Shown: positions 35,432 to 39,446 of the stretch, one piece after another
Layout of the letters: each line of letters starts with the position of its first letter
Position numbering within the stretch: the stretch's first letter is position 1
Notes under the pieces: model-generated
The model's input: only the letters and a program-made list of their open reading frames with translations
What the model was told of the DNA's origin: nothing
The model's database searches: none
Translations under genes and position numbers: made by a program
Source: Nitrincola schmidtii
GTDB taxonomy: Bacteria > Pseudomonadota > Gammaproteobacteria > Pseudomonadales > Balneatricaceae
DNA: 64,000 nucleotides
Reading direction: 5' to 3'
NCBI RefSeq assembly: GCF_008973715.1
Contig: NZ_WBOL01000002.1
Coordinates: 62,001 to 126,000, forward strand

Positions 35432-36511
35432 ATGACACGTAAATTCAACTTTAGCGCGGGACCGGCTGCTTTGCCGGATGAAGTATTACTGGAAGCTCAA
35501 CAAAATTTATCTGATTGGCAGGGCAAAGGACTGTCAATTATGGAGATGAGCCATCGTAGTGATGAGTTTGTTGCAGTAGCTGAGCAAGCAGAACAGGATT
35601 TGCGTGACTTAATGTCGATTCCTGAGAACTATCGAGTGCTGTTTCTTCAGGGTGGTGCGACCAGTCAATTTGCGATGTTGCCGATGAATTTACTTCGCGG
35701 TAAATCATCTGCTGATTACGTCAACACAGGGATCTGGTCTAAAAAAGCGATTGCCGAAGCAAAGCGATACTGCTCAGTCAATATTGCCGCATCGACCGAG
35801 TCGGATCACTTCATGCGAGCCCCTGATCAGAGTGAAATCAAGGTTAACCCTGAATCAGCATATTTGCATTACACCAGTAATGAAACCATTGGTGGTGTGG
35901 AATTCGACTATATTCCTGAAGTACAACTTCCTTTAGTGGTAGACATGTCTTCTGACATTTTGTCGCGGCCCTTGGATGTTAGTCGTTTTGGTTTGATCTA
36001 TGCTGGAGCACAGAAAAACATAGGCCCTGCAGGTTTGACCGTCGTGATTGTTCGTGAGGATTTGCTGGGCCAAACGGTCGCTGGAACACCAACCATGTAT
36101 GATTATCAGGTACAAGCCGAGGGCGGGTCGATGCATAACACCCCACCAACTTTTGCTTGGTATTTGTCTGGTTTAGTATTTCAGTGGTTGAAGCGCCAAG
36201 GTGGTGTTGAAGCAATGGCAGAGCTTAATCAGCGCAAAGCATCTAAGCTTTACTCAGCCATAGATCAAAGTGAATTCTTTGCCAATCCGATTGCAAAAAA
36301 CAGTCGTTCGATCATGAATATTCCGTTCACCCTCGCTGATGCAAGTTTAGAGAAAACCTTCCTGCTAGAATCGGAAGCCGCAGGATTGTTAAATCTTCAA
36401 GGTCATCGCTCGGTAGGAGGGATGCGCGCCAGTATCTATAATGCAGTTCCAGAAGCAGCGGTTGATGCACTGATCGCTTTCATGGCTGATTTTGAGAAAC
36501 GCTATGGTTAA
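35432..36511 (+). CDS. serC: phosphoserine aminotransferase
   Basis: SerC transaminates 3-phosphohydroxypyruvate in serine synthesis and 3-hydroxy-4-phosphohydroxythreonine-derived keto acid in pyridoxal phosphate synthesis. The 359-residue protein starts TRKFNFSAGPAALPDEVL and has the PLP lysine in YAGAQKNIGPAGL. ATG 35432 is chosen: an upstream TTG (35408) lies inside the terminator stem. It overlaps pheA by 8 bases. How it is transcribed past the hairpin at 35382-35416 is unclear. Confidence 0.96.
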   Translation: MTRKFNFSAGPAALPDEVLLEAQQNLSDWQGKGLSIMEMSHRSDEFVAVAEQAEQDLRDLMSIPENYRVLFLQGGATSQFAMLPMNLLRGKSSADYVNTGIWSKKAIAEAKRYCSVNIAASTESDHFMRAPDQSEIKVNPESAYLHYTSNETIGGVEFDYIPEVQLPLVVDMSSDILSRPLDVSRFGLIYAGAQKNIGPAGLTVVIVREDLLGQTVAGTPTMYDYQVQAEGGSMHNTPPTFAWYLSGLVFQWLKRQGGVEAMAELNQRKASKLYSAIDQSEFFANPIAKNSRSIMNIPFTLADASLEKTFLLESEAAGLLNLQGHRSVGGMRASIYNAVPEAAVDALIAFMADFEKRYG

Positions 36512-37385
36512 TCCGGTGACGTCTAATACGGATCAAGCTGAAGCCGCTCTGCTAGAGTTGCGTAATCAAATAGACTCTATTGATCAGCAGATACAGCAAC
36601 TGATCAATCAGCGGGCTACCTGTGCTCAACAAGTGGCAGAGGTTAAGCAACAGTTTAGCAACCAACATCCTGCCGTTTTTTATCGACCTGAGCGAGAGGC
36701 TCAGGTTTTACGTCGTGTTATGGAGCGTAATCAAGGTCCACTACCGGACCAGGATATGGCACGGTTATTTCGAGAAATTATGTCAGTGTGTTTAGCCCTA
36801 GAGCAGCCAATGATGGTCGCTTATCCTGGGCCTGAAGGCGGTTATACTGAACAAGCGGTGCGTAAGCATTTTGGCTTCTCCGTAAAAGGCATTGCCATGA
36901 GTGATCCCGAGCAGTCTTTTAAAGCGGTTGAAGAGGGGCGTTGTCATTATGCAGTCACCCCAATTGAATCCACTCAAGAAGGTTTGGTCAGTCATACTTT
37001 GGATCTTTTTCGTCGTTATGATTTACGAATTTGTGGCGAAGTGGAACTGGAATTAGATCCTTCAGATGACAAAACACTGGTTGCTGATACGCGTTATTTA
37101 GTTTTAGGTAGGCAGTACGTCGGTCCCAGTGGACAGGATAAAACCTCCATTCTACTAACGCTTCCTGATCAACCTGGTGTATTGCATGATGTGCTAGGTA
37201 TCTTTAGAAATCGAGGTATCAGCTTGACCCGACTTGAAAGTCGTACTTGGCAGCAATACTCCTTGTTCTATATCGATTTTCAAGGTCATCAAGAAGATGA
37301 GTTGATTAAAGAAGCATTGGCTGAGTTACCGCATGAAAATAACTCATTAAAAGTGCTTGGATCTTATCCCAGAGCCGTGCTCTGA
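36504..37385 (+). CDS. pheA: chorismate mutase / prephenate dehydratase (P-protein) with internally deleted dehydratase domain
   Basis: A 293-residue bifunctional P-protein, against about 360-365 in relatives. The AroQ chorismate mutase domain (1-100) is intact, with RNQIDSIDQQI, VFYRPEREAQVLRR and MARLFREIMS. The dehydratase part begins normally (VAYPGPEGGYTEQAVRKHFG, VTPIESTQEGLVSHTLDLF, ICGEVELELD), then jumps near residue 185-195 to DTRYLVLG. About 75 residues that normally follow CGEVEL, including the Ser/Gln-rich SHxQxxxQC catalytic loop, are missing. The ACT domain (about 214-293) is complete. The usual ENS/ENT of the first lobe is EST here. The reading frame is clean, so this is not a simple frameshift. 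Chorismate mutase activity is likely; prephenate dehydratase activity is doubtful. Confidence 0.9.
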   Translation: MVNPVTSNTDQAEAALLELRNQIDSIDQQIQQLINQRATCAQQVAEVKQQFSNQHPAVFYRPEREAQVLRRVMERNQGPLPDQDMARLFREIMSVCLALEQPMMVAYPGPEGGYTEQAVRKHFGFSVKGIAMSDPEQSFKAVEEGRCHYAVTPIESTQEGLVSHTLDLFRRYDLRICGEVELELDPSDDKTLVADTRYLVLGRQYVGPSGQDKTSILLTLPDQPGVLHDVLGIFRNRGISLTRLESRTWQQYSLFYIDFQGHQEDELIKEALAELPHENNSLKVLGSYPRAVL

Positions 37386-37404: not shown

Positions 37405-38505
37405 ATGAGCTGTGATTATGTGCAGTTAGCTAACCCGGGTGTGCAGTCTTTGCAGCCTTATCAAGCGGGTAAGCCCATGGATGAGCTTGAGCGAGAGTTA
37501 GGTATTCGTGAGATAGTCAAACTTGCGAGTAATGAAAATCCATTAGGGCCGTCACCTAAGGTTATCAGCGCTATTCAACAATCACTGTCAGAATTGACTC
37601 GCTATCCCGACAGTAATGGCTTCCAGCTAAAACATGCGTTATCACAACGTTTTAGTCTTTCTTCAGATCAGATTACCCTAGGTAATGGCTCCAACGATCT
37701 ATTGGAGATAGTAGCAAGAACCTTTCTACGAGATGGTACTGAAGCTATTTACTCCCAATATGCCTTTATTGTTTATCCTTTGGTGACGAAAGCGGCTGGC
37801 GCAAAGGGTATTGCCGTTCCGGCTAAAGCTTACGGGCATGATTTAACCGCCATGGCAGATGCCGTTAACGAAAAAACACGCGTCATTTTTTTAGCCAACC
37901 CGAATAATCCCACAGGTACCTGTTTTTCAACGTCTGCGTTTGAAACTTTTATGTCTCGTGTACCGCAATCTGTCATTGTGGTGTTAGATGAAGCCTATAC
38001 CGAGTTTGCTGAAAATATTGATACGCCAAACGGATTGGATTTTCTTGATCGGTATTCCAATCTTGTCGTGACGCGTACTTTTTCCAAAGCCTATGGTTTG
38101 GCTGCCTTGAGGGTTGGGTTTGCCGTAGCCAATCCTGATATTACCAACTTAATGAATCGTGTAAGACAGCCTTTTAATGTGAGTAGTTTGGCACAAACAG
38201 CGGCAGTAACAGCATTAGCTGATAGCGATTATTTGCAGCAAACCGTTCAGGTCAATAGCCAAGGATACCAGCAATTAATAGATGGTTTTACAGCGCTGAA
38301 GTTAGCGTTTATTCCCTCTGCTGCCAACTTCATTACCTTAGACATGAAAAAAGAGGCTCAACCTGTTTATCAAGCACTACTTCATCAAGGTGTGATTGTT
38401 AGGCCTTTAGCAGTTTATGGTTTGCCAAATCATTTGCGAATTAGCATCGGTACTCAGGCCGAGAATCAACAATTTCTAACAGCATTAGAAAAGGTGTCCT
38501 TGTGA
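37405..38505 (+). CDS. hisC: histidinol-phosphate / aromatic aminotransferase
   Basis: A 366-residue class I/II aminotransferase of the HisC type. It has ELGIREIVKLASNENPLGPS at the start, the NPNNPTGT motif and the PLP lysine in VTRTFSKAYGLAALRVG. In the pheA-tyrA context this second HisC copy commonly serves phenylpyruvate and hydroxyphenylpyruvate transamination. The ATG at 37405 has AGGAA 7 bases upstream. It overlaps tyrA by four bases (GTGA). Confidence 0.93.
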   Translation: MSCDYVQLANPGVQSLQPYQAGKPMDELERELGIREIVKLASNENPLGPSPKVISAIQQSLSELTRYPDSNGFQLKHALSQRFSLSSDQITLGNGSNDLLEIVARTFLRDGTEAIYSQYAFIVYPLVTKAAGAKGIAVPAKAYGHDLTAMADAVNEKTRVIFLANPNNPTGTCFSTSAFETFMSRVPQSVIVVLDEAYTEFAENIDTPNGLDFLDRYSNLVVTRTFSKAYGLAALRVGFAVANPDITNLMNRVRQPFNVSSLAQTAAVTALADSDYLQQTVQVNSQGYQQLIDGFTALKLAFIPSAANFITLDMKKEAQPVYQALLHQGVIVRPLAVYGLPNHLRISIGTQAENQQFLTALEKVSL

Positions 38506-39446
38506 TACAGAAACTAGATCGAGTATTAGTTGTAGGTCTAGGCCTGATAGGTGGCTCTTTCGCCAGTGGGATAAAAAGTCGATCTTTAGCAAATACGGTT
38601 GTTGGTTATGATATCAACGAACAGGAGTGTCGGTTAGGCGTAGAGTTAAATGTGATTGATGAGTACAGCACTGATCTATTATCAGCGGCTTCTGAAGCTG
38701 ATCTAATTATGCTGGCGGTTCCAGTGAAGGCAACCGAAGCCTTATTAGTGCAGATGTTTACAGTGATGAAGCCGACCGCGATTATTAGCGATGTGGGCAG
38801 TACAAAAATGAACATCATAGAAGCTGCTGGTCGTGTTTTTGGCACTCTTCCTCACAATTTTATTCCGGGTCATCCTATCGCGGGTGCTGAAAAAAGTGGT
38901 GTTACAGCCGCAAATCAGGATCTGTTTGAACGCCATAAAGTTATCCTAACACCGCTTGAAACAACCTCGGTGGATGCAGTCAAAGTCATAGCATCTCTTT
39001 GGCAGGCGCTGGGAGCTGAAGTTTTGGAAATGACTCCAGAGCGACATGATGAAGTGCTAGCAGCTACCAGTCATTTGCCCCATATTTTGGCATTCTCATT
39101 GGTCGATACCTTAGCGCATGAAGAGCAAAATAAAGATATATTTCGATACGCTGCGGGCGGTTTTCGCGACTTTACGCGGATTGCAGCCAGTGATCCAGTG
39201 ATGTGGCACGATATCTGTCATGCCAATAGAGATGCTATTTTAGATCAAATAGATCAATTTACGGATGGTCTAAGCCGGTTACGAACAGCCATAGATCAAG
39301 GCGATGGTCAAACGCTGTTGGGGATTTTTACCAGAGCACGCGTTGCACGAGAATATTTTAGTACGCTGTTAACGGGCACCGCCTACGAGTTAAAGCCCGT
39401 CGTGCAAAAGGAAGCTAACTTATTACAAAAAAAGGAGGCAGGTTAA
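38502..39446 (+). CDS. tyrA: prephenate/arogenate dehydrogenase
   Basis: TyrA oxidatively decarboxylates prephenate (or arogenate) on the way to tyrosine. The 314-residue protein has the NAD motif VVGLGLIGGSFASGI, ISDVGSTKMNI, the catalytic His region FIPGHPIAGAEKSG, and AATSHLPH. The GTG start at 38502 overlaps the hisC stop. In Pseudomonas relatives this domain is followed by, or fused to, aroA. Here the protein simply ends after TAYELKPVVQKEANLLQKKEAG and cmk starts at once. Confidence 0.95.
   Translation: MIQKLDRVLVVGLGLIGGSFASGIKSRSLANTVVGYDINEQECRLGVELNVIDEYSTDLLSAASEADLIMLAVPVKATEALLVQMFTVMKPTAIISDVGSTKMNIIEAAGRVFGTLPHNFIPGHPIAGAEKSGVTAANQDLFERHKVILTPLETTSVDAVKVIASLWQALGAEVLEMTPERHDEVLAATSHLPHILAFSLVDTLAHEEQNKDIFRYAAGGFRDFTRIAASDPVMWHDICHANRDAILDQIDQFTDGLSRLRTAIDQGDGQTLLGIFTRARVAREYFSTLLTGTAYELKPVVQKEANLLQKKEAG

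Follow-up and report, generated by a model that had tools for sequence, protein, structure and literature searches.

A Nitrincola P-protein without the second lobe of its prephenate dehydratase domain, probably retained as a chorismate mutase

The pheA gene in a window of 64,000 nucleotides from Nitrincola schmidtii (contig NZ_WBOL01000002.1, positions 62,001 to 126,000) encodes a P-protein, a fusion of chorismate mutase (CM), prephenate dehydratase (PDT) and an ACT regulatory domain, from which the second lobe of the PDT domain is missing. Judged from the sequence, the stripped gene is probably a CM that keeps the old P-protein body and lost the PDT lobe after a separate PDT had been gained; the probability of this reading was estimated to be about three in four. 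An ancestor within the family would have gained a separate PDT (referred to as PDT2), probably of an alphaproteobacterial type, after which the fused PDT site would have come under relaxed selection. Several lineages would independently have excised the second lobe, one loop inserted into the first lobe, without disturbing the frame. As no other CM was found in the genome, this one would have been retained, supplying prephenate to both TyrA and PDT2. In the genus Nitrincola and in a related genus, g7, the first lobe would have been retained as a scaffold linking CM to the dimerising ACT domain, where Phe would still bind and damp the CM. The preliminary description of the gene had proposed a phenylalanine-sensing CM with the dehydratase activity provided by another protein, and this interpretation as a whole was supported.

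The deletion within the PDT domain was found to be real. The Pfam PDT match of the pheA product covered profile positions 1-80 of 181, and a complete two-lobed PDT was not present. E. coli PheA was used as the reference for residue numbering. In the alignment with 25 full-length relatives, the Gly182-Thr278 segment was 18 residues long compared with 94-100 (median 96) in the relatives, and the net loss at the junction was determined to be 78 residues, in frame. It had been claimed that about 75 residues were lost and that ICGEVELELD passes directly into DTRYLVLG. The deletion and the jump were confirmed; the size was corrected, and instead of a direct passage a linker of about 10 residues was detected, the order at the junction being ICGEVELELD, PSDDKTLVAD and TRYLVLG. 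As also described, the second lobe with the catalytic loop is absent, S208, H209 and Q215 lying within the missing part, and the first-lobe Asn at the position of E. coli N160 is replaced by Ser; T278 is still Thr. We take N160, S208, Q215 and T278 to be functional residues of the PDT site, and the GALV and ESRP motifs to belong to the effector site of the ACT domain; these roles were reportedly described by Zhang et al. in 1998 and 2000. The PDT activity of the fused protein has probably been lost. The score with the NCBIfam equivalog PRK10622, 108.9 bits against a cut-off of 577, was obtained for the stripped protein and not for its full-length relatives and therefore bears little on the deletion.

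The CM and ACT domains were intact and the frame was open, as had been noted. The Pfam scores of CM and ACT were 85.2 and 41.6 bits, respectively, both exceeding the curated cut-offs of 27, and the TIGR01807 score (110.2 bits, cut-off 69.55) identified the CM as AroQ-type. R11, R28 and K39 of the CM were retained in 26/26 stripped proteins, and the column of E. coli Q88 was Glu throughout the 51 rows, whether stripped or full length; due to an apparent indel shift in the alignment with E. coli, the columns of CM residues around 48-52 are uninformative. CM activity is predicted for the protein. The C-terminal ACT domain was present as well, its GVL and LTRLESRT corresponding to the E. coli GALV and ESRP region, and the first PDT lobe was folded in the AlphaFold2 (AF2) model. 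The start ATG at 36504 overlaps the serC stop.

The separate dehydratase that had been postulated was found in this genome. PDT2, a protein of 283 aa with the catalytic residues present, is encoded on the minus strand (L051:3055-3906) and scored 398.2 bits with the NCBIfam equivalog PRK11899, the cut-off being 359. E159, N160, S208, Q215 and T278 were retained by PDT2 in 21/21 genomes examined, and a strong PDT match elsewhere was detected in all 26 stripped genomes. The PDT2 sequences of 23 genomes, sampled from 12 of 16 genera, formed one clade with 100% support, which joined 14 stand-alone PDTs from outside the class, also with 100% support, and was not grouped with the PDTs of P-proteins. 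The best matches among solved structures were the Brucella and Komagataeibacter PDTs. In the other families of the order, one full-length PDT match each was detected in the 21 genomes searched. A single gain of PDT2, early in the history of the family and from a source resembling Alphaproteobacteria, is probable; the tree was built without stand-alone PDTs from other phyla or Betaproteobacteria and leaves the donor unproven. In genus g11, a third, very divergent PDT was observed on a long branch beside the P-protein clade (G020:C13:2511-3041, G033:C103:31866-32399), together with an extra CM in a frame of 97-99 codons, perhaps belonging to a secondary pathway.

The same deletion was looked for in related genomes, as had been suggested. 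Among 116 genomes of the family, which we take to be Nitrincolaceae, 114 had a match (G067 and G119 had none) and 26 carried a lobe-less P-protein: 10/11 in Nitrincola (g1), 8/8 in g7, 6/6 in g4 and 2/8 in g5. In 87 other genomes the first match stopped at residues 182-204 and the frame was longer, 318 codons in G072 and at least 363 in the rest; in G121 the PDT match was full length. Stop-to-stop frames of the full-length relatives were mostly 361-421 codons. In G072, the P-protein match was interrupted by one TGA (G072:C1:1190023-1190409, query residues 55-183), with a full-length PDT match; the genome was scored 78% complete, and the internal TGA is maybe a sequencing error. In the order-wide search of 390 genomes, the contiguous, lobe-less matches among the matches listed were all within this family. 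The five named records closest to the pheA product were four Nitrincola isolates or metagenome-assembled genomes (MAGs) and one Oceanospirillales MAG, with identities of 77-96%. The next closest relatives were full-length orthologues in the same operon, which rules out that a protein already stripped was acquired horizontally.

The number of deletions was estimated with a species tree of 51 genomes (GyrA, SerC, TyrA and Cmk). The 26 stripped genomes fell within one clade with 100% support, interspersed with genomes that have the full-length protein, namely G004 (g1) and six of g5. A tree holding all 26 together was rejected in the approximately unbiased (AU) test (p-AU 5e-10), and with it a single deletion event. 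Of the other groupings, g1+g7 (p-AU 0.0003), G089+G090 (0.0005), g7+g4+G089 (0.001) and g4+G089 (0.016) were rejected and g7+g4 was not (0.26); all groupings tested had been chosen with the tree already in view. Therefore, at least four independent deletions occurred if the lobe was never regained, and five on the best tree; with reversals allowed, the fewest changes were four. The Gly182-Thr278 linkers were 17-18 residues in g1, 17 in g7, 7-8 in g4 and 13 and 19 in the two proteins from g5; such lineage-specific lengths are consistent with the lobe having been cut out separately at a shared structural seam. In G004 the lobe is present with N160S and S208A, whereas G090 (g5) and G092 (g4) kept N160 without the lobe, so the order of the steps differed among the lineages. 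In most of g4 and in G089, lobe 1 and ACT were eroded further.

The stripped P-protein was the only AroQ-type (CM_2) match in this genome, as in every one of the 14 stripped genomes in the set of 57 searched, and an AroH-type CM, looked for in this genome, was not found. The gene would be kept because it encodes the only CM found, and prephenate for both Tyr, via TyrA, and Phe must consequently come from it. A loss of function of the whole gene is ruled out by the sole CM and by the purifying selection. The selection was estimated from the nonsynonymous distances (dN) of 19 pairs, 13 within g1 or g7, three within g4 and three of the full-length g5, several of the synonymous distances (dS) being saturated. 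In g1 and g7, both the lobe-1 remnant and ACT were under purifying selection. The lobe 1/CM dN values were, for instance, 0.005/0.005, 0.058/0.037, 0.062/0.102 and 0.088/0.081, with the extremes of 0.053/0.149 and 0.025/0.010, and the ACT dN was mostly one to two times that of CM, at maximum 0.041/0.005. The ACT positions corresponding to E. coli G309, L311, T326, R327, E329 and R331 were identical in 18/18 stripped g1 and g7 proteins. In E. coli, excess Phe lowers the CM activity of PheA by 55%, according to an excerpt of PMC10520331, and Phe control of CM therefore has a precedent. In the stripped P-protein, Phe binding and the inhibition of CM by Phe are predicted from the retained ACT domain.

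Alternatively, the gene might be a relic in decay, in which the lobe-1 remnant and ACT are functionless and only a bare CM will be left. The g4 proteins fit such a description: in three pairs, the dN was 0.09-0.22 for lobe 1 and 0.21-0.48 for ACT compared with 0.015-0.10 for CM, the ACT centre was lost in four of six proteins, and G089 was eroded likewise. The within-genus pairs of g1 and g7, in which lobe 1 evolved about as fast as CM and ACT mostly one to two times as fast, and the six invariant ACT positions disagree with it, and decay is unlikely. It is more doubtful still that the stripped P-protein forms a complex with PDT2, for example via the ACT domains, by which CM and PDT would be rejoined non-covalently under shared Phe control. 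Both proteins occur in all 26 stripped genomes and both have an ACT region, although Pfam alone reports only PDT for PDT2, and ACT domains pair in a PDT homodimer, as stated in an excerpt of PMC8192741. However, the sequences held no evidence of an interface, the genes are distant (in G016, assembled as one contig, they are about 430 kb apart, and in this genome they lie on separate contigs), and g4 kept PDT2 though ACT was lost. Dehydratase activity of the remaining lobe is very improbable: T278, which we take to be central to the PDT site, was kept in 9/26 stripped proteins including this one, whereas N160 was kept in only 2/26. The putative active site is, moreover, located in the cleft between two subdomains according to PMC8192741, and one of these is gone here. 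A sequencing or assembly error, for which no favourable point was found, is practically refuted by the same gap in 10/11 genomes of the genus and 26 of the family with lineage-specific linkers.

Several observations weigh against the reading of the stripped gene as a CM under Phe control that lost its lobe after the gain of PDT2. The ACT rate in g1 and g7 ranged from 0.7 to 8 times the CM rate, and the decay of ACT in g4 means that some lineages can do without Phe control of CM. In 18/18 stripped g1 and g7 proteins, Ser or Thr stood in place of P332 of the E. coli ESRP motif and His or Tyr in place of V312, and the predicted affinity for Phe may be changed as a result. The AF2 model was a monomer calculated from 16 aligned sequences. 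Since S208 was Ala in 14/25 of the aligned full-length P-proteins, single-residue changes alone prove little about a loss of activity. A second PDT is also present alongside most full-length P-proteins of the family, so the gain of PDT2 does not force the loss of the lobe. As a separate observation, the Ala at S208 may mean that the fused PDT is impaired beyond the stripped lineages or that S208 is less important than we assumed.

The positions of the features are presented in Table 1. The order of the operon is gyrA-serC-pheA-hisC-tyrA-cmk-rpsA.

Table 1. Features of the pheA locus in the window. Residues are numbered from the codon after the ATG, which gives 292 aa.
Feature	Position	Strand	Basis
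pheA, P-protein without second PDT lobe, 293 aa	36504..37385	+	ORF and Pfam
AroQ CM domain, residues 18-100	36558..36806	+	Pfam CM_2 85.2 bits; TIGR01807 110.2 bits
PDT first lobe, residues 104-183	36816..37055	+	PDT profile positions 1-80 of 181
Junction, second PDT lobe (about 78 residues) missing	~37056..37088	+	alignment
TRYLVLG, strand returning to lobe 1; first residue is the counterpart of E. coli T278	37089..37109	+	alignment, AF2 model
ACT regulatory domain, residues 213-275	37143..37331	+	Pfam; motif alignment
hisC, operon neighbour (ancestral aroQ-pheA>hisC>tyrA order)	37405..38505	+	ORF, gene order
tyrA, prephenate dehydrogenase without AroA domain	38502..39446	+	ORF, alignment of relatives

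A domain was lost from the neighbouring tyrA product as well. TyrA was fused to AroA in 41 of the 49 genomes where TyrA was found, in frames of about 740-820 codons. TyrA lacked the AroA domain here and in six sister genomes, the frames being 325-355 codons (217 in the draft G006); TyrA was also unfused in G040, which belongs to another family. The stand-alone AroA of this genome is located at G000:C1:252890-254113. A second, free-standing 5-enolpyruvylshikimate-3-phosphate (EPSP) synthase besides MurA was detected in nine genera of the family (g1, g3, g4, g5, g6, g7, g11, g12 and g14) among the 57 relatives searched. In 12 aligned free-standing AroA proteins (11 from the family and that of G040), 16/16 checked positions, whose roles we presume, matched E. 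coli AroA. The fused AroA retained 12 of the 16 positions in all 10 aligned, searched genomes without a second AroA and 5-10 in g1, g3, g4, g5, g6 and g7. Conserved positions were thus lost from the fused domain in most genera with a second AroA, but the rule is not strict: g11 and g14 have a second AroA yet keep 12 positions, and g12 keeps 10-11. The loss of AroA from the TyrA-AroA fusion is a domain loss parallel to the loss of the P-protein lobe.

An older parallel was found outside the class in PRK06034, a family annotated as 'hypothetical protein' (NCBIfam NF004695-NF004698), whose genomes we take to be Alphaproteobacteria. The match of the Nitrincola P-protein to it was weak, at best 60.1 bits with a cut-off of 355, and both share the order of CM, lobe 1 and ACT without lobe 2. 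The post-CM part of PRK06034 aligned with that of the stripped P-proteins over lobe 1 through ACT, leaving no room for lobe 2. In the hhalign comparison of the post-CM parts, 28 PRK06034 proteins matched 21 of the 26 stripped ones (four eroded g4 rows and G089 were excluded) with E 6e-17 over 177/192 columns, and with 25 full-length P-proteins the E value was 2.5e-9. With the PDT2 profile, PRK06034 gave no match in hhalign (probability 0.0-0.1), whereas the stripped P-proteins did (99.1). Pfam applied to one PRK06034 protein found CM but neither PDT nor ACT. The 28 loci (L173-L200) were not a random sample, eight coming from the search and 20 being picked from its upper rows. In 26/28 of them hisC was located downstream on the same strand, directly in 25 and about 1 kb further in L195; in L182 tyrA was directly next, and in the short stretch of L200 neither was seen. 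According to an excerpt of Song et al. (PMC1173090), the place beside hisC was inferred for the ancestral aroQ-pheA, and the fusion disappeared in the alphaproteobacterial ancestor, whose pheA stands alone.

PRK06034 is probably an ancient P-protein stripped in the same way and located at the ancestral locus. This part is less certain because Pfam on a single sequence recognises only CM; the evidence for the link is the profile match with P-proteins, together with gene order. PRK06034 is much more diverged than the Nitrincola protein, and its origin would be separate, full-length PheA of Gammaproteobacteria being the closest to the Nitrincola genes. In both the Nitrincola family and the PRK06034 genomes, the loss of the lobe would go together with a stand-alone PDT of one shared type; of the PRK06034 genomes, 25/25 tested (23 of the 28 loci included) had one PDT match each, located elsewhere. 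The PRK06034-type protein was the only CM_2 match in 17/28 genomes; 10 had further CM_2 matches, and in G726 the only match lies elsewhere. It is conceivable, if somewhat short of an even chance, that lobe stripping is a repeatable route to a stand-alone AroQ CM with direct Phe allostery, taken several times in the Nitrincola family and once, long ago, in Alphaproteobacteria; PRK06034 would then be what is left of the ancestral P-protein and, in many species, still the sole CM. The 11 PRK06034 genomes with CM elsewhere lower its probability. In G506:C1:79916-81196 and G756:C8:184240-185527 (f77, g210), a PDT match adjoins a PRK06034-like match, possibly a P-protein split or reshuffled differently.

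Compared with known systems, the protein resembles the E. coli PheA-type P-protein in gene, operon place, CM, first PDT lobe and ACT and is an orthologue of the full-length relatives; it differs in the missing second lobe and catalytic residues and the replaced N160. In the GqqA crystal (PDB 7ALZ), as described in an excerpt of PMC8192741, the middle lobe was lost by proteolysis (residues 86-170 missing) and the protein was folded with Phe bound. That protein likewise consists of lobe 1 and ACT, but it is a proteolysis product from crystallisation and has no CM domain. In the TyrA-AroF fusion of P. syringae, the AroF domain was gutted and a stand-alone gene was acquired (Song et al. 2005, PMC1173090, excerpt). 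Here too one domain of an aromatic-pathway fusion was discarded together with the gain of a stand-alone gene; the gene is a different one, and about 200 residues were lost in one species, called there an unusual instance. Event 16 in Table 6 of the same source, also in excerpt, is the conversion of the pheA domain of aroQ-pheA to a pseudogene in one lower-gamma lineage. No account of a lobe-less P-protein was recognised in the open-access literature, as judged from titles and the starts of abstracts, and nothing was found there on Nitrincola prephenate enzymes or on PRK06034; recognition of the probable ancient counterpart was not found in the literature searched. The older version in probable Alphaproteobacteria and the parallel AroA loss from the neighbouring TyrA-AroA fusion are new.

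The family holds a series of intermediates, from proteins with both lobes and N160 lost, through those with the lobe cut, to those with lobe 1 and ACT eroded. The intermediates illustrate how a fused biosynthetic enzyme may be dismantled once a replacement gene has arrived, the deletion being replicated at least four times within one clade if the lobe was never regained. They also make it possible to test in a natural setting whether CM can be controlled by the PheA ACT domain once the dehydratase is gone. For PRK06034, annotated as hypothetical, a testable identity is provided. Genes that would be annotated as 'bifunctional PheA' in these genera probably encode proteins without dehydratase activity, which should be considered in their annotation.
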